Origin: Jiangella alkaliphila | Lineage (GTDB): Bacteria > Actinomycetota > Actinomycetes > Jiangellales > Jiangellaceae | Reading direction: 5' to 3' | Assembly (NCBI RefSeq): GCF_900105925.1 | Contig: NZ_LT629791.1 | Span: 3,135,278-3,199,277, forward strand | DNA: 64,000 bases | Shown here: piece by piece, positions 8,596-25,395 of the stretch | Layout of the letters: the number at the start of each line of letters is the position of its first letter | Position numbering within the stretch: the first letter of the stretch is position 1 | Position numbers and translations under genes: made by a program | Notes under the pieces: model-generated | Databases searched by the model: none | Told to the model about the DNA's origin: nothing | The model's input: the letters and a program-made list of their open reading frames with translations, nothing else

Positions 8596-10653
8596 TCAGA
8601 GCCAGGCCGACGGCTCCGGTGGCTCCACCGGGACGGGACGGTCGTCGCACCAGGTGCCCCAGGCGTCCCAGCCGCCGTCGTTGCCGCCGAGCAGGTCGAT
8701 CGAGAACTCCGGGCCGGTCGGCGGGAAGTTGAACGAGCCGCAGTTGTTCGTGAACGCGTGGCCGACGCCCCGGGCGTCCAGGTTCTCGATCGTCGCGCTG
8801 CCGAACGCCCGCGCGTTCAGCACGTTCGTCCCGGCGCCGTCGACCCGCACGTCGCGCACCGTCACGTGTGAGATGCCGTACAGGTCCTTGACCGCCCACT
8901 CCGACACGAACTGGATGGCGTTGTAGCTGACGTCCAGGAAGTCGGAGTCGACGACGCGGAAGTCGGCGTCCAGCGGGCCCTCCAGCGCGTAGAACCAGAT
9001 CGCGCCGACGCCGATGTCCCAGTTCAGCTCGCGGGTCCCGGCCCGGACGGTGGTGTTGCGGGCGAAGGTCAGCTGCCCCTGGAAGTCGGTCGAGCCGTGC
9101 CGGTAGCCGGCGTGCAGCGCGGACCCCTCGCGGACCGGGTCGGCGATCAGGTTGTCCGACACGGTGTTGTCGCGGCCGCCGTAGATCGCGATGCCGTTCG
9201 CCAGCACCGGCGACTGGATCGTGTTGTGGTCGAAGGTGTTGCCGGAGTTCTTGTCCAGCTCTTTCGCGGCGTCGCCACTGACGTAGTGCGACCACATCGC
9301 CATCGCGTCGTCGCCGGTGTTGCGGACGAAGTTGTTCGTCGCGCGCACGCCGGTCCAGCCGCGCCGGATGTTCAGCCCGTCGGCGATCTGGTCGACGATG
9401 ACGTTGTCGCGGATCAGCAGGTCGCTGCCGGGCCCGTCCAGCCAGATGCCGACCTTGGTGTTCTTGATGTAAAGGTCTTCGACGACGGAGTCGCTGAGTG
9501 CGCCGCCGACGCCGTTGACCTGGTCGTTGTCGATCCGCTCGGCCACCTCGCCGACGATCGCGAAGTCGGCCAGCCGAACGTCGTGGCTGCCGCCGGCGTC
9601 GTCCGCCCAGCGGCCGTAGAAGCCGGGGGAGTCGTGCCTCGAGCCGTCCGGCGCCTGCGTCGCGCGAGGCGTGACCGGGCCGGTGACGATCGAGTGCCAG
9701 TTCCCCGCCCCGACGATCGCGACCTCGTCGACCACGATGTGCCGGGTGACGAGGAACGTGCCGGCAGGGATGTAGACGACGGCGTCGCGGCCGGGGTGGC
9801 GCTGCTGGGCGTGCGCGATGGCGCGGTCGAACGCGGCCGAGGAGTCGCGGCGGCCGGACGGGTCGGCGCCGAACTGCAGGATCGACACCGAGTGCGCGGG
9901 CTTGCGGGCCGGCGGCGCCACCTGCTCGTAGTCCAGCAGGTCGACGACGGTCCACGCGGCGGCCGCGCGGCGCGGCACCGTCAGCCGCAGCGTCGACCCG
10001 GCGGGATGGGTGCGGTCCAGCAGCAGCCGCTGCTCGTCGTAGGCGTGGCTGGGCCGGTGCGGCTTGGCCTGGCTCTCCGTCGGCGGCCGCCACCAGTCCG
10101 GGTTGAGCCAGCCGGTCCCGGGGTCGTTCGAGAACGGGTAGTCGGCGTACAGCCAGGAGTACCGCGAGGTCAGCGTCATGGTGCTCCGGTGCCGGCCGTC
10201 GACGGTGACCTCCAGCGGTGACTCGATGCCGCCGCCTGACGGCGCGTCCGGGATGCTGGCGCGGACGGTGATCGCGTTGGCCGGGCGGGTCAGCGTGAAC
10301 TCGACGTACGCGCCCGGGTCCAGCCTGACGGCGTCGCGGCCGGACGCTTCGGCGCTCAGCGTGTAGGCGGCCCGCTGCTCGGCGCCGCGCCGGTCCGGGG
10401 AGTAGAGCGCGATGTCGCCGGTGGACGACGCGCTGAGCGGTTCGCCGGTGTGGACGGCGAACTCGGCCTCCTGCTCGGCGAACGCGACGTCGGCGCCGCG
10501 GCCCTCGACCAGCTCGGGGTCGAGGCCGGCCCGGGTCTCACGAGGCGTGGCGGCGGTGGCGGACGGAGACGGCTCGGCCTGGGCGGCCGGCATGACGGCG
10601 GCAATGGCGGTCGCGAGGACGGCGGCCGCGGCGACGATGAGACGGCTGCGCAT
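8596..10653 (-). CDS. secreted parallel beta-helix glycosidase-like protein (GH87/mycodextranase-like)
   Basis: A 685-aa exported protein. The signal peptide covers residues 1-26 (AAQAEPSPS). An N-terminal carbohydrate-binding-like beta-sandwich spans about 55-245 and includes YVEFTLTRPANAITVRAS and a YSWLYADYPF stretch. A right-handed beta-helix starts near 250 with ILQFGADPSGRRDSSAAFDRA and continues to the end with repeated asparagine-rich turns (DNTVSDNLIADP, NNFVRNTGDDAMAMW). The architecture resembles bacterial GH87 alpha-1,3-glucanases (mycodextranases) and pectate-lyase-fold enzymes; the glycan cleaved cannot be fixed from sequence. It is a single-gene unit. Confidence 0.72.
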   Translation of the reverse strand: MRSRLIVAAAAVLATAIAAVMPAAQAEPSPSATAATPRETRAGLDPELVEGRGADVAFAEQEAEFAVHTGEPLSASSTGDIALYSPDRRGAEQRAAYTLSAEASGRDAVRLDPGAYVEFTLTRPANAITVRASIPDAPSGGGIESPLEVTVDGRHRSTMTLTSRYSWLYADYPFSNDPGTGWLNPDWWRPPTESQAKPHRPSHAYDEQRLLLDRTHPAGSTLRLTVPRRAAAAWTVVDLLDYEQVAPPARKPAHSVSILQFGADPSGRRDSSAAFDRAIAHAQQRHPGRDAVVYIPAGTFLVTRHIVVDEVAIVGAGNWHSIVTGPVTPRATQAPDGSRHDSPGFYGRWADDAGGSHDVRLADFAIVGEVAERIDNDQVNGVGGALSDSVVEDLYIKNTKVGIWLDGPGSDLLIRDNVIVDQIADGLNIRRGWTGVRATNNFVRNTGDDAMAMWSHYVSGDAAKELDKNSGNTFDHNTIQSPVLANGIAIYGGRDNTVSDNLIADPVREGSALHAGYRHGSTDFQGQLTFARNTTVRAGTRELNWDIGVGAIWFYALEGPLDADFRVVDSDFLDVSYNAIQFVSEWAVKDLYGISHVTVRDVRVDGAGTNVLNARAFGSATIENLDARGVGHAFTNNCGSFNFPPTGPEFSIDLLGGNDGGWDAWGTWCDDRPVPVEPPEPSAWL

Positions 10654-10723
10654 ACTCGGTCAAAGTACAGCAAAATAAGGTGTAAGAATACGAAAGAACT
10701 CAACAATCCGCCATCATCTACCC
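10654..10723. promoter_or_regulatory. AT-rich upstream region of the beta-helix gene
   Basis: The 70 bases upstream of the minus-strand beta-helix gene are unusually AT-rich (runs such as CAAAATAAGG and AATACGAAAG), so its promoter is probably here. No confident -10/-35 pair could be assigned. Confidence 0.35.
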
Positions 10724-10796
10724 ACCCGAGTTGATCATGGAGAAGGTCGGCTCCAGATCGCCGCCAGAGCCGAGTTTCTCCATGATCAACTCGGGT
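10724..10796. repeat. dispersed hairpin element, copy 1 (21-bp stem)
   Basis: Perfect inverted repeat: 10724-10744 (core GTTGATCATGGAGAA) pairs with 10776-10796 around a 31-nt loop. The right arm contains the stop codon of the AHSA1 gene (10786-10788), so the element forms the 3' end of that minus-strand transcript and probably terminates it. The same core recurs near 17390 and, with changes, near 25680. Confidence 0.85.
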
Positions 10797-11250
10797 CGGG
10801 GGCGCGGCTCGCGGTCGTGCGGCCGAGCTCGTCGCGGTACCGGCCGAGCACCAGCGGCCAGCCGCGGTCGTAGTCGGCGCGGGCGGTGGACGGGTCGTCG
10901 TAGCTCTCCCAGCCGCTGTGCCGCAACGTCACCAGCGTGCCGCCGCCGTCGACCGCGGCGAAGGAGACCTCGACCAGCCCCGCGGCGTCGGCCGGCCGGC
11001 CCGGGTGCCAGGTGAACGCGACCACCGCGGGCGGCTCCCACCGGGTCACCGTCCCCCAGGCCGCCTCGTCGCCTGCCTCGGAGCGCTCGACGATGACGCC
11101 GTCCTCGAACGCGACGGTCGCGGCCTCGCCGTAGACGCTGAACCGGGCCAGCGGCCACCAGCGCCCGATGCCGGCGGTGAACACGTCGAACGCGACCGCC
11201 GGTGCGGCCTCGACCAGCAGTTCGCGGCGGATCTCGGGTACGGGACTCAT
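10786..11250 (-). CDS. SRPBCC/AHSA1-domain protein
   Basis: A 154-aa cytoplasmic START-like (AHSA1) domain protein. It opens VPEIRRELLVEAAPAVAFDVFT with IGRWWPL, and has VVAFTWHPG and TLVTLRHSGWESYDDP, typical of actinobacterial AHSA1 proteins paired with ArsR regulators. The ATG at 11250 overlaps the stop of the ArsR gene (ATGA), so translation is coupled. Its last codons and stop are formed by the right arm of the hairpin element. The ligand is unknown. Such pairs are annotated widely but few have been studied. Confidence 0.88.
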   Translation of the reverse strand: MSPVPEIRRELLVEAAPAVAFDVFTAGIGRWWPLARFSVYGEAATVAFEDGVIVERSEAGDEAAWGTVTRWEPPAVVAFTWHPGRPADAAGLVEVSFAAVDGGGTLVTLRHSGWESYDDPSTARADYDRGWPLVLGRYRDELGRTTASRAPDPS

Positions 11251-11582
11251 CGCTCGTCCTCCTCCGGTTCGGGCGTGGCGCGGGCGACCTCGGCGGCATA
11301 CGCGTCGAGCGCGACGTCCCAGGTGCCGACCAGCCACTCCTGCACGGCCGCCAGCCCGTCCGGCGCCAGCGCGTAGAGGTTGCGGGTGCCCACGCTGCGG
11401 TGCTCGATCAGCCCGGCGCCGCTGAGTACCCGCAGGTGCTTGCTCACGGCGGGCCGGCCGACCGGCAGTCGCTCGGCCAGCTTGCCGACGGGCGTCGGGC
11501 CGTCGCGCAACAACTCGAGGATGCGCCGCCGCACGGGCTCGCCGAGGGCGTCGAACGCCGCATCCGCTGATTGGTTACTCAT
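11247..11582 (-). CDS. ArsR-family winged-helix repressor
   Basis: A 111-aa regulator with a winged-helix fold: FDALGEPVRRRILELLRDGP, the recognition helix GRPAVSKHLRVLSGAGLI, and the wing HRSVGTRNLYAL. There are no metal-binding cysteines, so it is the non-metal ArsR type commonly coupled to AHSA1 genes. The ATG at 11582 is preferred over an in-frame TTG two codons earlier; no clear Shine-Dalgarno is seen. It probably represses its own two-gene operon. The 29 bases before the GMC gene end are too short to show an operator confidently. Confidence 0.88.
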   Translation of the reverse strand: MSNQSADAAFDALGEPVRRRILELLRDGPTPVGKLAERLPVGRPAVSKHLRVLSGAGLIEHRSVGTRNLYALAPDGLAAVQEWLVGTWDVALDAYAAEVARATPEPEEDER

Positions 11583-13902: not shown

Positions 13903-15165
13903 TCAACCTCGGCCGCTGCTGGCGCGGGCCCGCCGGGCGATCGCGTCGATCGACACCGCGAGCAGCAGCACCGCTCCGGTGACGATGAAACGCACGGAGG
14001 AGTCCACGCCGATGCGGTTGAGGCCGCTGTTGATCGACATGAGCACCAGCACGCCCAGCAGCGCCGAGTAGGCCGAGCCGCGGCCGCCGAACAGGCTGAC
14101 GCCGCCGATGACCGCCGCCGCGATCGCGGTCAGGTTGACGTCGTTGCTGCCGCTGGCCTGCGACACCGACGTCAGCCGGGCCAGGAACAACAGACCGCCG
14201 GTCGCGGCCAGCAGGCCGGTCAGCGAGAACGCCGAGATGTAGATCCAGGTGACGTTGATGCCGGAACGGCGGGCCGCCTCGACGTTGCCGCCGACGGCGT
14301 ACAGGTGCCGGCCCCAGGTCGACTTGCGCAGGACGAGGTCCAGGAGCACGACCAGCCCCACGAAGAACACCACCGCGAAACCCCAGCCGCGGTCGATGTT
14401 CAGGTAGTAGGTGAGGAAGCCGAGGCCGGCCAGCATGACCCCCGCCTTGATCAGCACCAGCGTCACCGACTGCGCGGGCAGCCCGGCCGCCGTCCGCCGC
14501 CGGATGCCGATGAGGTTGACCAGCGCGTACAGCGCGACGACCGCCACCACGACGACGTACGAGACCGCCGGGCTGAGGAAGTCCTCGCGGGCGAACTGCG
14601 CCAGCGGCGACGTGCGCGGCAGGTTGATCGTGCCGGTGTCGCCGAGCACGACGTACTGCAGGCCGACGAAGCCGAGCAGGCCGGCCAATGTGATGACGAA
14701 GCTCGGCACGCCGATCTTGGTGAAGATCAGCCCGTAGACGATGCCGATGACTGCGCCCGTCCCGGCGCCGGCCGCCAGCCCCAGCACCAGCGGCTGCTCC
14801 TGCTGGACCACCAGGACGGCCGTGATGGACCCCGCGAGACCGCTGATCGAGCCGACGGACAGGTCGATCTCGCCGAGAAGCAGCACCAGCACGATGCCGA
14901 CCGCGATGATGCCGTACGGCACGGCGGTGAGCGTGATGTTGACCAGGTTGCTCGACGACAGGTACGTGACGTCCTGCAGGTAGAAGACCAGCCCGATGAT
15001 GAACAGGCCGACGACCACCGGCAGCATGCCGAGGTCGCCGTCGCGGACGCGCCGCCGGAACGCGTCCACCGCGCCGCGCAGGCCGGCGTCCTGGGCCAGC
15101 CGCTCGTCGAGGAGGTCGGCGCGGGCCGCGGTCTCGTCGGCCGGCGCCGTCCGGGTCCTACTCAT
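13903..15165 (-). CDS. xylH: XylH-like sugar ABC transporter permease (cassette 1)
   Basis: A 420-aa inner-membrane permease with about ten to twelve hydrophobic segments. It carries the branched-chain/monosaccharide permease signatures GEIDLSVGSISGLAGSITAVL, VITLAGLLGFVGLQYVV, NVEAARRSGINV and AAAVIGGVSLFGGRGSAYSALLG. It forms the channel for the XylF/XylG-like proteins encoded just upstream; its start overlaps the ATPase stop by 8 nt. A cytoplasmic N-terminal stretch of about 45 residues precedes the first helix. The sugar is probably a pentose by family, not proven. Confidence 0.9.
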   Translation of the reverse strand: MSRTRTAPADETAARADLLDERLAQDAGLRGAVDAFRRRVRDGDLGMLPVVVGLFIIGLVFYLQDVTYLSSSNLVNITLTAVPYGIIAVGIVLVLLLGEIDLSVGSISGLAGSITAVLVVQQEQPLVLGLAAGAGTGAVIGIVYGLIFTKIGVPSFVITLAGLLGFVGLQYVVLGDTGTINLPRTSPLAQFAREDFLSPAVSYVVVVAVVALYALVNLIGIRRRTAAGLPAQSVTLVLIKAGVMLAGLGFLTYYLNIDRGWGFAVVFFVGLVVLLDLVLRKSTWGRHLYAVGGNVEAARRSGINVTWIYISAFSLTGLLAATGGLLFLARLTSVSQASGSNDVNLTAIAAAVIGGVSLFGGRGSAYSALLGVLVLMSINSGLNRIGVDSSVRFIVTGAVLLLAVSIDAIARRARASSGRG

Positions 15166-15982
15166 CGGTGCCCCCTGACGCCTCGCGGCGGGCGTTGCGC
15201 TCGGCCACGACGTTGTCCGACGCGCCGGTGATGGCGGCGACGAGCTGCTCGGTCGTGACGTCGACGGTGCGGAACTCGGCCTCGTTGCGGCCCAGCCGCA
15301 GCACCACGATGCGGTCGGCGACGGCCTGCACGTCGGCCATGTTGTGGCTGATCAGGACGACGGCGAGGCGCTGCTCGCGGAGCCGCTCGACGAGGTTCAG
15401 CACCTCGGCGGTCTGCGCGACGCCCAGGGCGGCGGTCGGCTCGTCGAGCATGACCACCTTGGGCTGGCCGACCAGGCTGCGGGCGATCGCGACGGTCTGC
15501 CGCTGGCCGCCGGACAGGCTGGCGACCGGGATGCGCACGGTCGGGATCTTCGCGCCCAGCTCGCGCAGCAGCCGCCAGGACTCCTTCTCCATGGCCACCT
15601 CGTCCATCCAGGCCTGCGAGCCCAGCTCGCTGCCGAGGAACAGGTTGGCCACGACGTCGAGGTTGTCGCAGAGCGCGAGGTCCTGGAAGACCGTCGCGAT
15701 GCCCAGCGACTGTGCGGTGCCCGGGCTGCCGACGTGCACCTCGCGGCCCTCGACCCGCATGCTGCCGGAGTCGGGCTGGTACACGCCGGACATGATCTTG
15801 ACCAGGGTCGACTTCCCCGCGCCGTTGTCGCCGACGAGGGCGACCACCTCGCCGGCGTGGACCTGGAAGTCGACGCCGGCCAGCGCCTGGACGGCGCCGA
15901 AATGTTTGCCGATCCCGGTGAGTTCCAGGACCGGCTGGGTCGTGCGGGCCGAGGACCCGCTCTCCTCTGTGGCGACGCTCAT
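15158..15982 (-). CDS. xylG: XylG-like single-domain sugar ABC ATPase (cassette 1)
   Basis: A 274-aa ATPase powering sugar import. It has Walker A GDNGAGKSTL, Q-loop FQDLALCDNLDV, signature LSGGQRQ, Walker B VVMLDEPTAAL and switch LISHNMAD. E. coli XylG/RbsA are tandem two-domain proteins of about 500 aa; this one has a single domain, as in many actinomycete cassettes, and must act as a homodimer. The ATG at 15982 lies 9 nt after GAGGAG; an ATG three codons earlier abuts that site. The gene lies between XylF- and XylH-like genes. Confidence 0.92.
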   Translation of the reverse strand: MSVATEESGSSARTTQPVLELTGIGKHFGAVQALAGVDFQVHAGEVVALVGDNGAGKSTLVKIMSGVYQPDSGSMRVEGREVHVGSPGTAQSLGIATVFQDLALCDNLDVVANLFLGSELGSQAWMDEVAMEKESWRLLRELGAKIPTVRIPVASLSGGQRQTVAIARSLVGQPKVVMLDEPTAALGVAQTAEVLNLVERLREQRLAVVLISHNMADVQAVADRIVVLRLGRNEAEFRTVDVTTEQLVAAITGASDNVVAERNARREASGGTDE

Positions 15983-16010
15983 CGGCACCATCTCCTCTGT
16001 TCCAGAGTCA

Positions 16011-16071: not shown

Positions 16072-17157
16072 TCAGCTGAGGCCCGCGGCCGCGCAGGCGT
16101 CCGCGTAGTCAGCGGTGCAGATCTCGTCGACGCTCCAGAACTCGTCGGCTACGACGGTGTCGGCCACGTTGTCGGCGGTGACCACGATCGGGTCGTGGAT
16201 CAGCGACGGCACACCCTGGAAGTCGACGGTGTCGGCGACCTCCTCGCCGTTGACGATCGAGATGGCCGCCTCGGCGGCGCCCTCGGCCTCGACCGGGATC
16301 GGCTTGTAGACCGTCATGTATTGCTCACCCGCGACGATGCGCTGGATGGCGGCCAGCTCGGCGTCCTGCCCGGTCACCGGCGGCAGCGCGTCGGCGGCGA
16401 TGCCCGCACCGGTCAGCGCCGCGATGACGCCGCCGGCCTGGCCGTCGTTGGCGGCGTAGACGCCGGCCAGCGAGGCGGGGTCGATGGTGTTGAGCTGGTC
16501 CGTCGTCCACGACTGGGCGTTGTCGGGGCTCCAGTCGGGGTTGTCGTACTCGCCGACGACGGTGAGGTCGCTGGCGTCGATGATGCTGTGCGCGCCGGAC
16601 TTGAACTGCGCGGCGTTGGGGTCGTCGGGCGACCCGTTCAGCATGAGGATGTCGCCGGCCGCGCCGACCGCGTCGACCAGGGCCTGGCCCTGCAGCTCGC
16701 CGACCCGCTCGTTGTCGAACGAGGTGTAGTAGTCGGCACCCTCGATGAAGCGGTCGTAGGCGATGACCGGGATGTCGGCGGCCTGCGCGTCGGCCACCAG
16801 CGACGCCGCGGCGACACCGTTGACCGGGTCGAGCACCATGACGTCGACGTTCTGCGAGATCGCGGAGTCGACCTGCTCGGCCTGCTGGGCCTCGTCCTGG
16901 TCGGCGTTGAAGTAGACGACCTCGCAGTCGGCGCACAGCTCCGCGACCTTGGCCTCGAACAGCGGCCGGTCGAACGCCTCGTAGCGGGCGGTGGCCGCTT
17001 CCGGCAGGAGCAGGGCGATCGAGGCGCCCCCGCTCGCGGTCTCGTCGCTCCCGCCGCCGTTGTCGTTGTCGTCCTCGTTGGCGCCACAGGCGGCCAGTGC
17101 GCCGGCGGCCAGGGCGAGGACTGCGAAGACGGCAGCCCGTCGATTGGGCTGGTGCAC
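16072..17157 (-). CDS. xylF: XylF-like sugar-binding lipoprotein (cassette 1)
   Basis: A 361-aa lipid-anchored periplasmic-binding-type protein. The signal peptide ends in lipobox LAAC at Cys24. The mature part closely follows the XylF pattern: LLLPEAATARYEAFDRP, VIAYDRFIEGADYYTSFDNE, LMLNGSPDDPNAAQFKSG, GVYAANDGQAGGV, PPVTGQDAELA and MTVYKPI. The GTG at 17157 was chosen because AAAGGAGGG lies about 8 nt upstream and the signal peptide begins there. It has a Cys pair in CADCE and another near the C-terminus. It is the first gene of cassette 1. Confidence 0.92.
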   Translation of the reverse strand: MHQPNRRAAVFAVLALAAGALAACGANEDDNDNGGGSDETASGGASIALLLPEAATARYEAFDRPLFEAKVAELCADCEVVYFNADQDEAQQAEQVDSAISQNVDVMVLDPVNGVAAASLVADAQAADIPVIAYDRFIEGADYYTSFDNERVGELQGQALVDAVGAAGDILMLNGSPDDPNAAQFKSGAHSIIDASDLTVVGEYDNPDWSPDNAQSWTTDQLNTIDPASLAGVYAANDGQAGGVIAALTGAGIAADALPPVTGQDAELAAIQRIVAGEQYMTVYKPIPVEAEGAAEAAISIVNGEEVADTVDFQGVPSLIHDPIVVTADNVADTVVADEFWSVDEICTADYADACAAAGLS

Positions 17158-17239
17158 AGTGAAACCCTCCTTTGGGTTCTTGGCCCGCCGATAGATCGGC
17201 CGGCTGGGGAGAGTGTCGAACGCCTGCGCGTTGTCGTCA

Positions 17240-17330
17240 AGGCTCAAATACATTACGCGTTTACAACTTGTTTATGCGTTCGTATTTCGACAGCAAATAT
17301 ACGGACATCGCCCGTGAATCGCGGTACGGA
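17240..17330 (-). promoter_or_regulatory. AT-rich promoter/operator region of sugar cassette 1
   Basis: The DNA upstream of the xylF-like gene is markedly AT-rich against its surroundings. It contains an imperfect dyad centred on ACAACTTGT (17263-17271) flanked by GTTTA-type halves (17257-17278). ROK-family XylR/NagC operators are AT-rich imperfect palindromes, so this is the best candidate site for the adjacent ROK regulator; exact promoter boxes are not clear. Confidence 0.4.
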
Positions 17331-17453: not shown

Positions 17454-18620
17454 CTACTGCGCGGCATCGAGGCCGGCGATGAGCGCGCCGACCGCCTCGG
17501 TGTCCTCGCCGAGCGGCGAGATCGCCACCCGGGTCCGCTCCGCCACGCCGGGGAGGACGGCCCGGCGGAAGCCCTGCTGGACCGGGCGCAGCCAGGCGTC
17601 GCCGGCGGCGATCAGCGGCCCGCCGAGGGCGATCTCGGCCGGGTTGAGGATCATCGCCAGCCAGCCCAGGCCCCGGCCGAGCAGCTCGCCGGCGTCCTCG
17701 AGCACGTGCACCGCGACGGGGTGCCCGTCGCCGATCAGCGCGAGCACCTCGGTGAGCCCGAGGTCGCGCTGCAGCGCCGAGCTCAGCGCGGAACGGACCG
17801 ACTCCGCCGAGCCGACCGTCTCCAGGCAGCCGCGGCGCCCGCACCGGCACACCACCGACAGGCCGGGGTCCAGCGCGAGGTGGCCGATCTCGCCGGCCGC
17901 GCCGGAGTCGCCGCGCAGCAGCTCGCCGCCGACCGCGACCCCCGCCCCGATGCCCGAGCCGACCTTGACGAACACCACCGATCCCGGGCCGGCGCCGGCC
18001 CGGCGGGCCAGCGCGAGCGCGCCGAGGTTCGCGTCGTTCTCGACCACCACGGGCCGGCCCAGGACGGCGGCGATCTCGTCGCGCAGCGGGAAGCCGACCA
18101 GCGTGGGCAGGATCGCCGTCTCGGTGACGGAGCCGGTCGCGGCGTCGATCGGCGCCGGGACGCCCACCGCGACTCCGGCGATCTGGCCGGCGGTCAGGCC
18201 GGCCCGTTCACGGGCCGCCGCCGCGAGCGAGGCGATCGTCTCGATCAGCGTGTCCGGGCGCAGGCCGCCGGCGAGTTCCGTGGCGGACTCGGCCAGCACC
18301 TCGCCGGGTTCGGCGCCGGCGACGACCTTGACGTGCGTGCGGCCGAGGTCGATGCCGATGCCGTACCGCTGCCGCGCCGGCGCGCGCTGGACCAGGCGGC
18401 TGCGCCGGCCGTTGGCGACGCCCTGGCTGACGACCAGCTCGCCCTCGTCGACGAGGGCGTGCACCAGTCCGGAGATGGTCGCGGGGGCGAGGCCGGTCAG
18501 CCGGGCCAGCTCCGCCTGGCTGACCGGCTGGCCGGCCGGCAGCGCGAGCAGCAGCCGCTGCCGGTTCGCCAGCCGCAGGGCGGACAGCGACCCGGGACGC
18601 AGATCGCCCCTTGACGTCAT
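17454..18620 (-). CDS. ROK-family transcriptional regulator (XylR/NagC type)
   Basis: A 388-aa sugar-responsive repressor. The N-terminal MarR-like HTH (about 15-70) reads QPVSQAELARLTGLAPATISGLVHALVDEGEL. The ROK sugar-kinase-like domain has GIDLGRTHVKV, VVVENDANLGALA and the zinc-binding CRCGRRGCLE cluster followed by GLGWLAMILNPAEIALGGPL. It lies 53 nt after the cassette 2 permease and just upstream of cassette 1, all on the minus strand. It is therefore placed to control one or both sugar importers; xylose is likely by analogy only. Confidence 0.9.
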   Translation of the reverse strand: MTSRGDLRPGSLSALRLANRQRLLLALPAGQPVSQAELARLTGLAPATISGLVHALVDEGELVVSQGVANGRRSRLVQRAPARQRYGIGIDLGRTHVKVVAGAEPGEVLAESATELAGGLRPDTLIETIASLAAAARERAGLTAGQIAGVAVGVPAPIDAATGSVTETAILPTLVGFPLRDEIAAVLGRPVVVENDANLGALALARRAGAGPGSVVFVKVGSGIGAGVAVGGELLRGDSGAAGEIGHLALDPGLSVVCRCGRRGCLETVGSAESVRSALSSALQRDLGLTEVLALIGDGHPVAVHVLEDAGELLGRGLGWLAMILNPAEIALGGPLIAAGDAWLRPVQQGFRRAVLPGVAERTRVAISPLGEDTEAVGALIAGLDAAQ

Positions 18621-18672: not shown

Positions 18673-19824
18673 CTAGCGGCCGGGCCGCGAATGCTCGCGG
18701 AACGGCGTTATTTCGGCACGGTGCGCGAGCGTGTCCAGCCCGACGGCGACGGCGAGGACGAGACCGGTCGCGATCAGCCGGATCGCCGACGACGCGCCCA
18801 GCAGGTCCAGGCCGTTGGCCAGCGAGCCGACCACCAGCGCGCCCAGCAGCGCCGACCACACCGTGCCGCGGCCGCCGAACAGGCTGGTCCCGCCGATGGC
18901 GGCGGCGGCGACCGCGGTGAGCATCAGGTCGGTGCTGCCTGACGACTGGTTGACGGCGAGCAGCCGCGACGCGGCGAGGATGCCGCCGGTGACGGCCAGC
19001 ACCGAGGCCAGCATGAACACGACCAGGCGGATCCGGTCGACCGCGATGCCGGCCCGGCGCGCCCCCGACGCGTTGCTCCCGGTCGCGACGGCGTGACGGC
19101 CGAGCTTCGTGCGGCGCACGACCAGGTCGCCGCCGGCGAGCAGCACGAGGAACACCACCACGGCGAGCGGCACGCCGCGGTCGGCGTTGAACACCGCGAC
19201 GGCCACCGGCGCGCCGATGGCGGCGACCACCCACGGCCAGACCCGCCGCGCCGGCCGCGGCCGTTCGTTGCGCAGGTACCCGACGATCGCGAGGACGGCG
19301 CCGCCGCTCGCCACAGCGGCGATCAGCCAGCCGAGCCCCGGCGCGAGGAACGTCCCCGCGATGGCCACCAGCTGCGGGTCGTCGATGTTGACGCTGCCGG
19401 TGTCGCCGAGGACCAGCAGCAGCGCGCCCTGCCACGTCAGCAGCCCGGCCAGCGTCACCACGAACGACGGGACGCCGACCCGCGTCACCATGGCCGCGTG
19501 CAGCAGCCCGACCAGCGCGCCGGTCAGCAGCCCGGCGAGGATCGCCAGGACGGCCGGCCAGTCCTGCTTCACGCTGAGCACGGCGGTGACGGCCGCGCCG
19601 AAGCCCGACACCGCGCCGACGGACAGGTCGATCTCGCCGATCAGCAGCACGAGCACGACCGCCACCGCGACGGCGCCCACCGCGACGATCTGCAGCATCA
19701 GGTTCGTGAGGTTCACCGCCGACAGGAAGCGCGGGTTGCTCAGGCTCATGACCAGCCAGATGATGGCGAGCGCGGCCGGCGGCGCCCAGCGGCCCAGGCG
19801 CGCCGGCGACACCGACCCGCTCAC
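18673..19824 (-). CDS. XylH-like sugar ABC transporter permease (cassette 2)
   Basis: A 383-aa integral membrane permease paralogous to the cassette 1 permease: LLIGEIDLSVGAVSGFGAAVTAVL, VVTLAGLLTWQGALLLV, NASGARRAGIAV, and AAAAIGGTSLFGGRGTVWSALLG. It lacks the long N-terminal tail of its paralogue. The GTG start overlaps the binding-protein stop by 4 nt (GTGA). No separate ATPase gene occurs in this operon, so its energy-coupling partner should be the ABC domain of the ATPase-kinase fusion encoded at the operon head. Confidence 0.9.
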   Translation of the reverse strand: MSGSVSPARLGRWAPPAALAIIWLVMSLSNPRFLSAVNLTNLMLQIVAVGAVAVAVVLVLLIGEIDLSVGAVSGFGAAVTAVLSVKQDWPAVLAILAGLLTGALVGLLHAAMVTRVGVPSFVVTLAGLLTWQGALLLVLGDTGSVNIDDPQLVAIAGTFLAPGLGWLIAAVASGGAVLAIVGYLRNERPRPARRVWPWVVAAIGAPVAVAVFNADRGVPLAVVVFLVLLAGGDLVVRRTKLGRHAVATGSNASGARRAGIAVDRIRLVVFMLASVLAVTGGILAASRLLAVNQSSGSTDLMLTAVAAAAIGGTSLFGGRGTVWSALLGALVVGSLANGLDLLGASSAIRLIATGLVLAVAVGLDTLAHRAEITPFREHSRPGR

Positions 19825-20909
19825 GGCGCCCCGCCCTCGGTCAGGCCGGCGACGGCGCACTCCTGCTCGAGCCCCTCGCAGATCTCGTCCACCGACCAGA
19901 AGCCGTCGGCGACGACGGTCGCGGCGATCGTCTCGCGCGTGACGGCGACCGGCTCCAGCATCAGCGCGGGGATGCGTCCCTGGCCGTTGTCGACCCAGCT
20001 GTTGCGCAGGTCGTCCGGCGGCTCGCCGGTCCGCGCCAGGCTGACGGCGACGTCGGCGGCCATCTCGGCCTGCGTGCGCACCGCCTTGTAGACCGTCATG
20101 TACTGGTCGCCGGTGAGGATCCGGCGGATCGCCGCCAGTTCGGCGTCCTGCCCGGTCACCGGCGGCAGCGGGTCGAGCCCGGCGGCCTTCATCGCGGCGA
20201 TGGCGCCGCCGGCCACGCCGTCGTTGGCCGCGTAGACGCCGGCGACGCGGTCGCGGCCCAGCGTCGTCAGGGCCCGGTCCATCGCCTCCTGTGCCTGGTC
20301 GGGCGACCAGTCGGGCACGTCGACCTCGGCGCCGACGGTGACACCGGCGGTGTCGAGGACGCTGTGCGCGCCACGGCGGAACAGCGCGGCGTTGTCGTCG
20401 GTGGGCGAGCCGTTCAGCACCACCAGCTCGCCGCCGGTGTCGCCGACGGCGGCCAGCAGGACCTCGGCCTGCAACACGCCGACCTGCTCGTTGTCGAACG
20501 TGACGTGGAAGTCGACCGGGACGTCGAGCACGAGCCGGTCGTAGCTGACCACCGGGACGCCGGCCGCGTGCGCCAGGCGGACGATGACAGCGGCGGACCT
20601 GGAGTCGACCGGGTCGAGCACGAGCACGTCGGCGCCGTTGGTGAGCGCGGCCTCGGCCTGGGCCTGCTGGTGGGCGGCGTCCTGGTCGGCGTTGCTGACC
20701 AGCGTCTCGCAGTCGGCGCACACCTCCTGGACGCGGTCGACGAACGCCGGGCGGTCGTGCGACTCGTAGCGGGCGGTCTTGTTCTCCGGCAGCAGCAGGG
20801 CGATCTGCAGCTCGTCGGACCCGCCGGCGGCCGTGCCGCAGGCCGCCGCCCCCAGCGCCAGGGCGAGGACCGCGGGCAGGGCGGCGGCGAGCAGGCGTCG
20901 GCGGCCCAT
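19821..20909 (-). CDS. XylF-like sugar-binding lipoprotein (cassette 2)
   Basis: A 362-aa lipoprotein with a signal peptide ending at Cys24 (LGAAAC). The mature domain parallels the cassette 1 protein: LLLPENKTARYESHDRP, VVSYDRLVLDVPVDFHVTFDNEQ, VVLNGSPTDDNAALFRRGAHS, GVYAANDGVAGGA and PPVTGQDAELA. The CADCE and C-terminal Cys pairs are conserved between the paralogues, suggesting structural disulfides. The ATG shares one base with the response-regulator stop (TGATG). It probably binds a pentose-like sugar and may supply the input to the fused kinase through the transporter. Confidence 0.9.
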   Translation of the reverse strand: MGRRRLLAAALPAVLALALGAAACGTAAGGSDELQIALLLPENKTARYESHDRPAFVDRVQEVCADCETLVSNADQDAAHQQAQAEAALTNGADVLVLDPVDSRSAAVIVRLAHAAGVPVVSYDRLVLDVPVDFHVTFDNEQVGVLQAEVLLAAVGDTGGELVVLNGSPTDDNAALFRRGAHSVLDTAGVTVGAEVDVPDWSPDQAQEAMDRALTTLGRDRVAGVYAANDGVAGGAIAAMKAAGLDPLPPVTGQDAELAAIRRILTGDQYMTVYKAVRTQAEMAADVAVSLARTGEPPDDLRNSWVDNGQGRIPALMLEPVAVTRETIAATVVADGFWSVDEICEGLEQECAVAGLTEGGAP

Positions 20910-21604
20910 CACCGGTCCGTCGTGAAGCGGTAGCCGGCCCGCGGCTCGGTGACGATCAGCTCGGTGCCCTCGGGTCCTTCGAGCTTGGCCCGCAGCCGGC
21001 CGACGTACACGCGCGTGTACTCCGTCTGCGTCTCGTAGCCCGGCCCCCACACCCGGCGCAGCAGTTCGGCGTGCGACAGCAGCCGGCCGGGGTTCATCGC
21101 CAGCTCGCGCAGCAGCGCGTACTCGGTGCGGGTGAGGTGCACCCGCTTGCCGCCCTTCGTGACCAGCTGGGCGTCGAAGTCGATGCGCACGTCGCCGACC
21201 CGCACCTGCGGCGCCACCGGGCGCGGCTCGGCCGGACGGGCCCGGCGCAGCATGGCGTTGATGCGGGCGAGCAGTTCCTCGATGCCGAACGGCTTGGTGA
21301 GGTAGTCGTCGGCGCCCAGGTTCAGCGCCCGGACCTTGTCGGTCTCGCCCCGCCGCGCCGACAGCACGATGATCCCGACGTCGGACCGGTCGCGCACCGC
21401 CCAGCACAGGTCGAAGCCGTCGTGGCCGGGCAGCATGAGGTCGAGCAGCACGACGTCGGGCGCGGTCTCGTCGAGCAGCCTGAGCAGGTCGGAGCCGTCC
21501 GTCGACACGACGACCCGGTAGCCGCGGGCGGTGAGGTTGGACCGCAGGACGTCGACGATGATGCGGTCGTCCTCGACGATGAGGACGCCGGGAGCCTCAG
21601 CCAT
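20909..21604 (-). CDS. response regulator, OmpR/KdpE type
   Basis: A 231-aa regulator. The receiver has EDD at 11-13, phospho-acceptor D55 in VVLLDLMLPG and the Lys of LTKPFG near 103. The OmpR winged helix covers about 130-228 (LTRTEYALLRELAMNPGRLLS, then VYVGRLRAKL and EPRAGYRF). The start overlaps the ATPase-kinase fusion gene by 8 nt, so it is the partner of that kinase. Being inside a transporter operon, it likely autoregulates sugar uptake; targets are not identifiable here. Confidence 0.93.
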   Translation of the reverse strand: MAEAPGVLIVEDDRIIVDVLRSNLTARGYRVVVSTDGSDLLRLLDETAPDVVLLDLMLPGHDGFDLCWAVRDRSDVGIIVLSARRGETDKVRALNLGADDYLTKPFGIEELLARINAMLRRARPAEPRPVAPQVRVGDVRIDFDAQLVTKGGKRVHLTRTEYALLRELAMNPGRLLSHAELLRRVWGPGYETQTEYTRVYVGRLRAKLEGPEGTELIVTEPRAGYRFTTDR

Positions 21605-24008
21605 CGTTCTCCTCGTCGTCGGCCGGTTCGACCGGCAGTGTCACGCGGAAGCTCGACTCGGGCCCGGCCACCAGCTCGACTCGGCCGCCGTGCGCCGCGG
21701 CGATGCCGCGGACGATGGCCAGTCCCAGCCCGGCGCCGGTGCTGCCCTCGCCGCGCACCCGCGGCTCGAAGATCCGCTCCGCGACCTCGGGCGGGATGCC
21801 GGGGCCGTCGTCGCTGACCAGCACCTCGACCGACGTGCCGCCGCTGACCGCCGCGGCGGTGACGCGCACCGCGCCGTCGGGCCCGCCGTGGCGGACCCCG
21901 TTCTCCAGCAGGTTGACGAACACCTGCTCGAGGCGGTCGTGGTCGGCCCAGATCGGCGGCAGGTCGGCGGCGACCGCGACCTTGACGCGGTCGGGGTGCG
22001 GCACGCAGCTGCGGGCCGCCTCGAGGACGAGCCGCACGTCGGTCCAGTCGGGGCGCAGGCGCAGCAGGCCGGACTCGATGGCCGAGGAGTCGAGCAGGTC
22101 GCCGACCAGGCGCTCCATGCGCGCGGACTCCGTCGTGATGGCGGCGAGGAACCGGTCGATGGAGTCGGGGTCCCAGACGAGGTCGCGCTGCTGCAGCGTC
22201 GAGGCGTACCCGTGGATCGCGGTCAGCGGCGTGCGCAGCTCGTGGCTGAGGTGCTGCAGCACCTCGCGCTGCAGCTGCTGAGAGCGCCGGGCGGCGGCCG
22301 CCTCGCGGCGCGCGCTCTCGAGCATCTCCCGCTCCAGGGCGAGAGCGAGCGACCGGCGCGCGTCGTCGAGCAGCTCGACGGCGTCGCGGGACGGCTCCGC
22401 GGGGTCGTCCCAGCGGGCCAGCAGCAGCCCGGTGCCGCCGGGGATCGGCAGCCCGGCGATGGCCAGACCGTCGCCGAGGCGCCGCGGCCGGTCGATCCCG
22501 GCAGGCGCCGCCTCGGCCAGCTCGCGCAGCCCGTGCGGGTCGGACTCAGAAGACTCGTCGAGGTCGATGTGCACCCACCGGGGCCCGCCGCCGGTGAGCT
22601 CGGAGACGTCGGTCAGCAGCATGCCGGCCGCCCGGGCACCGAGGCCGCGGCAGAGCGCGAGCAGCGCGGCGGACAGCCCGCCGTCGACGCGGTCGGGACC
22701 GGCCAGCGTCTCGAGCATCGCCCGCAGCGACTCGAGGATCTCGTTGCGCCGGCTGACCTCCTCGATCAGCCGTTCGCGCTCGATCGCACTGGCGGCGTGG
22801 CCGGCGTAGAGCGAGACCAGCTCGCGGCGGTCGGCGTCGAGGCGGCCGGCGGAGGTGCTGAACCCGGTGATGGTGCCCAGCACGCCGGTGGAGCCGACGA
22901 TCGGCGCGGACCACGCGCTGCGCACCCCGGCGGCGGAGGCCTGCTCGAGGTAGCCGGTCCAGGACGACTCGTCGCTCAGGTCGTCCATGACCACCAGCTG
23001 GCCGAGCGCCGCCGCCGTCCCGACCAGGCCGCCGGCCGACCCGACCGGCACCAGCGCGGCGTCCTCGGCCAGCGCCGGCGGCACGCCGATGGCCGCGGTG
23101 CGGCGCAGCAGCGGCCCGCGCGGCGCGCGGTCGAGCAGGTGCACGCAGAGCATGTCCTGGTCGAGGGCGGCCGCCGTGGCCGACACCACGAGCGGCAGCG
23201 ACGCGGCGGGGTCGGCGGCGGAGAGCTGCTCGACCAGGCTCTTCAGACGGTTGAGCTGACGGCGCGCCGCCGACTCGGTCTCGATGCCCGACATCAGCGC
23301 CGCGACGTCGTCAGAGTGGACCTCGGCCGGCGACACGGTCGCGACGATGCGGCCGTGGCGGAGCACCACGATGCGGTCCGCCAGCGCGAAGACCTCGTCG
23401 AGATCGTGGCTGACCAGCAGGATCGCCCGGCCGTCGTCGCGCAGGCCGCCCAGCACGCGCATGATCTCCGCGCGGCGCAGCACGCTCAGCGACGCCGTCG
23501 GCTCGTCCAGCACCAACAGGTCGGCGCCGGTGGACAGCGCCCGGGCCAGCGCCACCTCCTGCCGCTGGCCGCGCGACAGTGTGTCGACCCGGGCCCGGAC
23601 GTCGGTGAGCTGCGAGCCGAACCGCTCGAGCGCGTGCCGGGCGTCGGCGGCCATCCGGCCCTCGGCCAGCAGGACGCGGGAGTGCTCGCGGCCGAGGAAG
23701 ATGTTCGCCACGACGTCGAGGTCGTCGCAGAGCCCGAGGTCCTGCCAGACCACCGCGACCGGCGCCCGGGCGACGCCGGCGGTGGCCTGCACCTCGACCT
23801 GGCCCTCGTCGACGTCGGTGTCGCCGGTGATGCACCTGACCAGCGTCGACTTGCCGGCGCCGTTCTCGCCCACGACGGCGACGATCTCGCCGCCGCGCAC
23901 GCTGAGCGACACGCCGTCGAGCGCTCGCAGCCGCCCGTAGCGCTTCGTCACGCCACGCAGCTCGAGGATCGGCCCGGCCGTGCCGCGGCGGCCGTCGCCG
24001 TCGGTCAT
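21597..24008 (-). CDS. sugar ABC-transporter ATPase fused to GAF-like domains and a histidine kinase
   Basis: An 803-aa single-frame fusion (numbering from the ATG at 24008). Residues 12-245 form an XylG-type ABC ATPase with Walker A GENGAGKST (47-55), Q-loop VWQDLGLCDDLDVVANIFLG, signature LSRGQRQ (144-150), Walker B LLVLDEPT and switch His in LVSHDL. A helical linker leads to a GAF domain (about 265-415) and a second GAF-like region (about 430-560). The kinase follows: H-box HLSHELRTPL with phospho-acceptor His589, N-box FVNLLENGVRHG, G1 DDGPGIP and G2 GAGLGLAI. All catalytic motifs of both enzymes are intact. It heads an overlapping operon with regulator, binding protein and permease but no other ATPase. 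It could couple transport state to phosphorelay. It lies 87 nt from the QorB-like gene. Confidence 0.93.
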   Translation of the reverse strand: MTDGDGRRGTAGPILELRGVTKRYGRLRALDGVSLSVRGGEIVAVVGENGAGKSTLVRCITGDTDVDEGQVEVQATAGVARAPVAVVWQDLGLCDDLDVVANIFLGREHSRVLLAEGRMAADARHALERFGSQLTDVRARVDTLSRGQRQEVALARALSTGADLLVLDEPTASLSVLRRAEIMRVLGGLRDDGRAILLVSHDLDEVFALADRIVVLRHGRIVATVSPAEVHSDDVAALMSGIETESAARRQLNRLKSLVEQLSAADPAASLPLVVSATAAALDQDMLCVHLLDRAPRGPLLRRTAAIGVPPALAEDAALVPVGSAGGLVGTAAALGQLVVMDDLSDESSWTGYLEQASAAGVRSAWSAPIVGSTGVLGTITGFSTSAGRLDADRRELVSLYAGHAASAIERERLIEEVSRRNEILESLRAMLETLAGPDRVDGGLSAALLALCRGLGARAAGMLLTDVSELTGGGPRWVHIDLDESSESDPHGLRELAEAAPAGIDRPRRLGDGLAIAGLPIPGGTGLLLARWDDPAEPSRDAVELLDDARRSLALALEREMLESARREAAAARRSQQLQREVLQHLSHELRTPLTAIHGYASTLQQRDLVWDPDSIDRFLAAITTESARMERLVGDLLDSSAIESGLLRLRPDWTDVRLVLEAARSCVPHPDRVKVAVAADLPPIWADHDRLEQVFVNLLENGVRHGGPDGAVRVTAAAVSGGTSVEVLVSDDGPGIPPEVAERIFEPRVRGEGSTGAGLGLAIVRGIAAAHGGRVELVAGPESSFRVTLPVEPADDEENDG

Positions 24009-24095: not shown

Positions 24096-24890
24096 TCAGC
24101 GCAGCGTGCGGACGAACTCCTCGATCGGGGCGGCGGGACGGCCGAGCAGCCGCTCGAGGTCCGGCGTCGGCGTGCCGAACTGCGGCAGCCGCAGCAGCGG
24201 CAGGATGAAGGCCATGCCGCCGGTCTCGTCGTCGGCCAGCTCCCGGAAGGTGACGCCGAGGGCCTCGGCGAGCTGCGGATACGTCCAGCCGGGGCCGCGC
24301 AGCTCGTAGACGGCCTTCTCGTGGCCGGTCCCGGTCAGGACGGCGCTCGCGGCCAGCGCGAGGTCGGCGATCGGCGCGGTGACCAGCGGCTGCCCGATCG
24401 CCGGCGCTGCCAGCTCGCCGGCCTTCACCGCGGCCGCCGCCAGGTCCGCCGTCACCAGCTCCTCGGTGTAGAAGGTGTTGCGCAGGAACGTGTACGCGAT
24501 GCCGGTGTCGCGGATCGCCCGCTCGGTCGTCGTGTGGTCGGCCAGGAAGCTCGCGCCGTCCTCGGCGGTGATGGCGCTGGTGTAGACGATGTGCCCGACG
24601 CCGGCGGTCTCGGCCGCTGCCACCACGTTCGCGTGCTGGCGCGGCCGCACGCCCGGCGACGTGTCCGACGCCGACACGAACAGCAGCCGATCGGCGCCGG
24701 CGAACGCGCGGCCGAGGCTGGCCGGGTCGTCGTAGTCGGCCTGGCGCACCTCGACGCCGCGCTCGGCGAAGGGCCGCGCCTTCTCCGGGTCGCGCGCCAC
24801 GACGGCGACCTCGCCGGCCGGCAGTTCGGCGATCAGGTCGTCGACCACGACGGGCCCGAACCGGCCGGTCGCCCCGGTCACCACGATCAT
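24096..24890 (-). CDS. NAD(P)-binding NmrA/QorB-like quinone oxidoreductase
   Basis: A 264-aa atypical SDR. The N-terminal nucleotide-binding motif is VTGATGRFGPVVVDDL, followed by ARDPEKARPFAERGVEVRQADYDDP, ADRLLFVSASD and TFLRNTFYTEEL. This pattern fits QorB-type NAD(P)H:quinone oxidoreductases and NmrA-like redox sensors. It is transcribed divergently from an HxlR regulator across a 106-base gap; HxlR/QorB-like pairs often respond to electrophiles or quinones. The ATG at 24890 is the normal family start. Confidence 0.88.
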   Translation of the reverse strand: MIVVTGATGRFGPVVVDDLIAELPAGEVAVVARDPEKARPFAERGVEVRQADYDDPASLGRAFAGADRLLFVSASDTSPGVRPRQHANVVAAAETAGVGHIVYTSAITAEDGASFLADHTTTERAIRDTGIAYTFLRNTFYTEELVTADLAAAAVKAGELAAPAIGQPLVTAPIADLALAASAVLTGTGHEKAVYELRGPGWTYPQLAEALGVTFRELADDETGGMAFILPLLRLPQFGTPTPDLERLLGRPAAPIEEFVRTLR

Positions 24891-24961
24891 GACTGTCTCC
24901 GTTCACTCAAGGGTCTGTTCTCGCGACGATCGCGACGTTACGCTGGAGACTCACCCAGCGA

Positions 24962-24974
24962 AAGTACGTACCTT
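24962..24974. promoter_or_regulatory. candidate HxlR operator
   Basis: AAGTACGTACCTT is a near-perfect palindrome 22 nt before the HxlR start, in the divergent promoter region shared with the oxidoreductase gene. HxlR-family sites typically contain GTAC half-sites, so it is a plausible autoregulatory operator. Confidence 0.5.
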
Positions 24975-24996
24975 GAGGTAACCAACGGAGGTGGGC

Positions 24997-25395
24997 GTGA
25001 GCATCGAGGTCAGCAAGGGCCTGCAGGCGCTGCAAGGTGACGTGTTCGACAGCAACTGCCCGTCGCGCGGCATCCTGGAGCACGTCACCAGCCGGTGGGG
25101 CGTGCTCGTCCTGGCCGCGCTGGGGGAGCGCGAGCAGCGCTTCGGCGAACTGCACCGGCGCATCGGCGGGGTGAGCCAGAAGATGCTCGCCCAGACGCTG
25201 CGCGCGCTGGCCGCCGACGGCTTCGTCGAGCGGACGGTCATCCCGGCCGCGCCGCCGCAGGTCAGCTACCGGCTGACCGCGTCAGGCGACCAGGTCGCCG
25301 CGCACGTGGTCGGGCTGGTGGGCTGGATCGAGCAGAACCTGCCCGCCATCCTGGCCGCCCGCGAGGGCCAGCCGGCGCCGTCCGACACCCCCTAG
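24997..25395 (+). CDS. HxlR-family winged-helix regulator
   Basis: A 132-aa DNA-binding protein. It has the HxlR signature: a single N-terminal Cys (DSNCPSRGILEHVTSRWGVLVL, where this Cys is often the redox sensor), RFGELHRRIGGVSQKMLAQTLRAL, and the wing VIPAAPPQVSYRLTASG. The GTG at 24997 is 5 nt after GGAGG; an in-frame GTG two codons earlier abuts that site. It is divergent from a QorB-like gene, which it probably regulates in response to thiol-reactive compounds. Its end overlaps the convergent repeat-peptide gene by 4 nt. Confidence 0.9.
   Translation: MSIEVSKGLQALQGDVFDSNCPSRGILEHVTSRWGVLVLAALGEREQRFGELHRRIGGVSQKMLAQTLRALAADGFVERTVIPAAPPQVSYRLTASGDQVAAHVVGLVGWIEQNLPAILAAREGQPAPSDTP

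Follow-up and report, generated by a model that had tools for sequence, protein, structure and literature searches.

XylG, the ATPase of XylFGH-type sugar importers, usually carries a pair of ATPase domains and lacks a kinase part. In the XylFII-LytS/XylR system of Clostridium, xylFGH is under the control of a two-component system that takes its input from a XylF-like protein, and the kinase LytS is a membrane protein that is contacted by the binding protein and carries no ATPase fusion. In the BceAB-BceRS system of Firmicutes, a kinase and regulator are governed by the state of an ABC transporter and in turn induce a transporter (PMC10314905, PMC8534201), and in Ks-Amt5 an ammonium transporter is fused to a histidine kinase, with the transporter part having lost transport and serving as a receptor (PMC5764959). 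Communication between transporters and kinases is known mainly from loose membrane complexes; here we describe a locus of Jiangella alkaliphila, located in a 64,000-nucleotide stretch of contig NZ_LT629791.1 (the window), in which kinase and transporter are joined covalently, by way of the ATPase domain.

An initial annotation, made from the letters alone, had proposed that one frame encodes a sugar ABC-transporter ATPase, GAF-like domains, and a complete histidine kinase. We confirmed this architecture: a minus-strand frame runs intact from an ATG at 24008 to a stop codon ending at 21597, and comprises the following features:

21597..24008, minus strand: fused ABC ATPase, GAF, GAF-like, and histidine kinase protein; 803 aa, without a membrane segment
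23280..23972, minus strand: ATPase domain, aa 13-243, a single XylG/CUT2-type NBD with all catalytic motifs intact (Pfam ABC_tran and structure model)
22719..23210, minus strand: first GAF domain, aa 267-430, with a long helix at its end (Pfam GAF_2 and structure model)
22389..22688, minus strand: second GAF-like domain, aa 441-540 (structure model only, without a Pfam match)
21627..22271, minus strand: kinase core, with HisKA at aa 580-647, including H589, and HATPase_c at aa 689-794 (Pfam)

All Pfam matches were above cut-off (ABC_tran, 30-172, 2e-28; GAF_2, 273-410, 3.6e-12; HisKA, 580-647, 5e-16; HATPase_c, 689-794, 2.5e-23). The ABC fold, together with an intact Walker A (GENGAGKST), Q-loop (VVWQD), signature (LSRGQRQ), Walker B (LLVLDEP), and switch His (VSHD), identifies a CUT2 (XylG-type) ATPase, and the H (SHELRTPL, H589), N (NLLENGVRH), G1 (DDGPG), and G2 (GAGLGL) boxes identify a HisKA-type sensor histidine kinase. 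The best NCBIfam matches of the ATPase domain were AraG, YtfR, and XylG, all below cut-off; the equivalog for the two-domain XylG/AraG/RbsA proteins was missed by a wide margin (best 178 bits vs. a cut-off of 689), the fusion having one ATPase domain. An AlphaFold2 model returned the ATPase domain (13-243), the GAF (about 267-430) and GAF-like (441-540) domains, a long helix (541-605), and the kinase core, with a mean pLDDT of 79; it was built from 19 sequences and its pTM of 0.36 makes the relative placement of the domains unreliable. Each of the top PDB fold matches listed resembled one part of the fusion, kinase/GAF or ATPase, and no solved relative with both was among them. No stretch of the whole 803 aa was hydrophobic enough for a membrane helix, so that the fusion lacks the build of a BceS-type kinase, which has two membrane helices and no extracytoplasmic domain. 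Open frames on the opposite strand of the gene, the longest 1169 aa, were set aside as high-GC shadow frames.

Searches with the middle of the fused protein brought the fused members to 30 (the window included), spread over several families of Actinomycetota and no fewer than three of its classes. The open fused frame is conserved in these 30 members, which rules out both a sequencing error and a false joining of two genes. The fusion was found in 9 of 12 Jiangella genomes (our own included), in 3 of 5 genomes of the sister genus Phytoactinopolyspora, and in 18 further genomes from other families and classes, and no match was found in the Jiangella genomes G007, G008, and G010; these frequencies are rough, as sampling was sparse and thresholds differed between searches. 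The regulator gene always adjoins the fusion, and so do xylF/xylH-type genes wherever the contig reaches. The fused ATPase domains form one clade (100/97), apart from the neighbouring XylGs, pointing to a single origin of the fusion. The dN/dS of the ATPase domain (about 0.2-0.3) indicates that it is under purifying selection. Spread by plasmids was considered and dropped; no plasmid record covers 80% of the fused protein.

Downstream, three genes follow the kinase gene so closely that each overlaps the next:

20909..21604, minus strand: OmpR/PhoB-type response regulator with phospho-acceptor Asp55 (Response_reg and Trans_reg_C)
19821..20909, minus strand: BP1, XylF-like sugar-binding protein with a likely lipobox (PDB 3m9w, E. 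coli XylF, 3e-54)
18673..19824, minus strand: PERM1, XylH-like permease (BPD_transp_2) of a dedicated form, type A below (Pfam/NCBIfam and permease tree)

The start and stop coordinates bear out the overlaps given earlier: 8 nt between the kinase stop (21597) and the regulator start (21604), 1 nt where the regulator stop and BP1 start share position 20909, and 4 nt between the BP1 stop (19821) and the PERM1 start (19824). The regulator is MtrA/PhoB-like in NCBIfam, yet below the cut-offs. BP1 scored 235 bits (1.4e-69) against the NCBIfam xylF equivalog and did not reach its cut-off of 389.55; it has the XylF-type fold and keeps the YDR, TDDN, W, ND, QD, and YK motifs, whose residues we take, by way of XylF, to be sugar-binding. 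Since these sugar-site motifs are kept, the signal is probably an aldopentose, for instance xylose. Upstream, a same-strand gene for an NmrA-like oxidoreductase and a divergently oriented gene for an HxlR-type regulator (24096-25395 in the window) accompany the module in most Jiangella loci. No structured RNA was found in the region.

The same-strand cluster continues beyond PERM1 with a regulator and a second, complete importer:

17454..18620, minus strand: ROK-family regulator, 52 nt after PERM1
16072..17157, minus strand: XylF2, the binding protein belonging to this importer, probably starting with GTG at 17157
15158..15991, minus strand: XylG2, independent XylG-type importer ATPase, 2.7 kb downstream of the PERM1 gene
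13903..15165, minus strand: XylH2, permease of the separate importer, with the canonical coupling loop GGNVEAARRSGI

The statement that the operon contains no other ATPase is thus correct for the four overlapping genes and incorrect for the cluster as a whole, which holds XylG2. Between the two sets, identity is 52% for XylF2 vs. BP1, 44% for XylH2 vs. PERM1, and 42% for XylG2 vs. the fused ATPase domain. The longest XylF2 frame (16072-17253, ATG at 17253) begins within a conserved promoter block, and the likely GTG at 17157 has an AGGAGGG ribosome-binding site.

Across the relatives we distinguish two locus types, with two further loci, cut by contig ends, standing outside both counts. In the 14 loci of type B, the fusion is followed by the regulator, a XylF-like binding protein, XylG, and XylH, or by an arrangement close to this. 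The 14 loci of type A, from Jiangellaceae, G631, and G761, have the order fusion, regulator, binding protein, and permease, and their operon encodes no separate XylG. Type A sequences group together in the trees of the fusion (SH-aLRT 99) and the permease (98), and weakly so in that of the binding protein (81). Variants also occur: loci L046 and L063 (G181) have a permease-XylG pair upstream of the fusion plus a set of binding protein, XylG, and XylH downstream, and locus L107 (G1015) has two tandem XylF-like binding-protein genes between regulator and XylG (9056-11444).

No PDB sequence match was found for PERM1, and it is by family knowledge, not from a solved homologue, that we take the GGNxEAARRxGI loop to be the ATPase-facing coupling loop:

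19045..19080, minus strand: PERM1 coupling loop, aa 249-260 (GSNASGARRAGI), in which S250 and S253 replace the Gly and Glu conserved in XylH

GG and E were present in all 24 compared XylH-type rows (GGS in one), a count that excludes two divergent extra permeases, from L046 and L106, of which one has GDN with E and the other GGH with D. In the type A permeases, the second G is S (G250S) and the E is S, R, or D (E253S/R/D) in 14 of 14. Of the 67 columns that are nearly invariant in XylH, only six differ in every type A permease, and three of these six lie within or beside the coupling loop; the membrane motifs GEIDLSVG and PSFVVTLAG are retained in most. On the ATPase side, two residues are type-A-specific and occur in 14 of 14 type A fused ATPases, D96 of the permease-facing groove and R146 of the signature; the groove (aa 86-110) of the fused ATPase is 63% identical to XylG, vs. 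40% for the whole domain. Because there is no XylG in the operon, the coupling loop is altered, and D96 and R146 are specific to type A, the fused ATPase very likely docks on the type A permease, PERM1 in our window; that the kinase lacks a membrane anchor of its own argues for the same seat. The changes look as they should for a dedicated ATPase-permease pair, though they represent one event on one branch.

The initial annotation had gone further and proposed that the fused ATPase energises the importer. As a partner of PERM1 in the Jiangella type it very probably stands; as the general job of the fusion it does not, because half of the relatives carry an adjacent XylFGH with its own XylG. 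The corresponding reading, that the fused ATPase powers import through PERM1 and that the rate of its ATP cycle sets kinase output, is possible but doubtful in our judgement. It gains from the catalytic motifs, intact in nearly all members, from the purifying selection on the domain, from the lack of another ATPase in type A operons, and from the precedent of BceS, which tracks ABC transporter cycling (PMC10314905). It loses by the type A coupling-loop Glu, which is gone, by the separate XylFGH that adjoins the module in Jiangella and in G020 (both type A), as by the XylG that type B loci have of their own, and by type A locus L061 (G761; genome 64% complete), whose fused ATPase has lost both the Gln of the Q-loop and the His of the switch, with the kinase boxes intact. 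This degenerate site may be a natural hint that hydrolysis is dispensable for signalling. Since the Glu is lost and G761 lacks these two ATPase residues, we favour a receptor over a flux meter for type A. That the fused ATPase is the sole motor of PERM1, each ATP cycle directly setting kinase output, seems to us similarly doubtful; if true, one polypeptide would both drive import and report flux to a gene regulator.

It is unlikely that the ATPase domain works away from the permease, as a dimerisation or nucleotide-sensing input of a cytosolic sensor whose GAF domains detect an internal metabolite and whose linkage to the importer is regulatory only. The fusion has no membrane anchor, and GAF domains often bind small molecules, as such a sensor would need; however, neither the constant linkage to xylF/xylH-type genes nor the preferential conservation of the permease-facing groove fits it. 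Very improbable is a reading in which XylG2 or another ATPase from outside the operon drives PERM1 and the fusion only modulates PERM1: XylG2 is only 2.7 kb away and one ATPase can serve several actinobacterial importers (e.g. MsiK), but the PERM1 loop is unlike that of every XylG-served permease compared, and the stretches fetched around the type A loci of G017, G018, G631, and G761 hold no other ABC ATPase.

Candidate target sites of the regulator provide an indication of the output. The gaps between regulator and binding-protein genes in type B contain 28 GTTYAC-n5-GTTYAC pairs in 12 loci, vs. 1.9 in shuffles (up to two mismatches), with half-site spacing peaking at 11 and 31 bp. A matching repeat, GTTTAC-n5-GTTTAT, is conserved ahead of the separate importer of the window:

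17230..17296, minus strand: promoter block upstream of xylF2, near-invariant in nine Jiangella genomes
17259..17275, plus strand: candidate regulator site GTTTACAACTTGTTTAT, an 11-bp direct repeat within this block

The exact pattern GTTYAYN5GTTYAY has nine sites in the 7.7 Mb genome, the xylF2 promoter being one of them (reversed control, zero). Paired GTTCAC-like units 11 bp apart, near candidate target genes, have the build of a PhoB/MtrA-type operator, and PHO boxes are 11-nt repeats with GTTCACC (PMC6988585); this likeness is as expected, because the regulator is PhoB/MtrA-like. Some of the other genomic sites precede phosphate-type genes and resemble PHO boxes. A near copy of the repeat lies ahead of the xylF of G020, from the sister genus, and the pattern is absent from the Jiangella genomes in which no fusion was found (G007, G008, and G010). 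The prediction that every type A genome has a Jiangella-like operator failed, none being found in G017, G018, G631, and G761. The Jiangella repeat is oriented against xylF transcription, opposite to type B, and it could belong to the ROK regulator instead, or the ROK protein could use the same block.

We think it rather probable that the module is a two-component system in which a transporter serves as the receptor and XylFGH is induced. Two copies of the fusion would seat their ATPase domains on the cytoplasmic face of PERM1, at the positions of XylG; the lipoprotein BP1 would deliver an aldose, most likely xylose, upon which PERM1 and the ATPase pair would change state. Gene order and intact motifs suggest that the GAF domains and long helices relay this movement to the kinase core, and that the core would then phosphorylate the regulator encoded by the overlapping gene. 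The conserved repeats suggest that the phosphorylated regulator binds direct repeats of 11 bp (GTTYAC-n5-GTTYAC) and switches on a complete XylFGH, presumably the downstream importer in Jiangella and the adjacent importer in type B relatives. In the Jiangella type, the BP1-PERM1 pair would have become dedicated to the fused ATPase. Counting against this receptor reading, type B fusions coexist with XylG, and the two would somehow have to share a permease; the type A genomes in which no operator was found, the reversed orientation of the Jiangella repeat, and the PHO-box-like sites elsewhere in the genome also speak against it.

A soluble fused kinase can be purified, mutated, and mixed with the permease, which makes a long-standing question directly testable, namely whether the kinase reads ligand binding, ATP binding, or turnover. 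Comparing type A with type B gives a natural view of how a transporter turns into a receptor, and points to defined interface residues that can be swapped.

Compared with BceAB-BceRS, the proposed system likewise couples a histidine kinase and regulator to an ABC transporter and leads to transporter induction; however, the BceAB-BceRS kinase is a separate membrane protein touching the permease, whereas the fusion kinase is soluble, covalently joined to the ATPase, and associated with a sugar importer and binding protein. Ks-Amt5 also joins a transporter part to a kinase, but it is an Amt channel in one chain, while here the ATPase subunit alone is fused and the permease and binding protein are separate chains. 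BP1, PERM1, and the fused ATPase domain belong to the XylFGH/CUT2 families, from which the type A permease differs by the missing coupling-loop Glu. XylFII-LytS/XylR shares the connection of a XylF-like protein to a two-component system for xylFGH, but signals through the membrane kinase LytS, with no ATPase fusion, instead of a soluble kinase fused to an ATPase. In the searchable open-access literature we found no description of a kinase fused through an ABC ATPase subunit, and no functional account of a covalent NBD-kinase, which agrees with the view of the initial annotation. Transporter-coupled and transporter-fused kinases are already known; as far as that literature goes, what is new here is the fusion by way of the ABC ATPase subunit.
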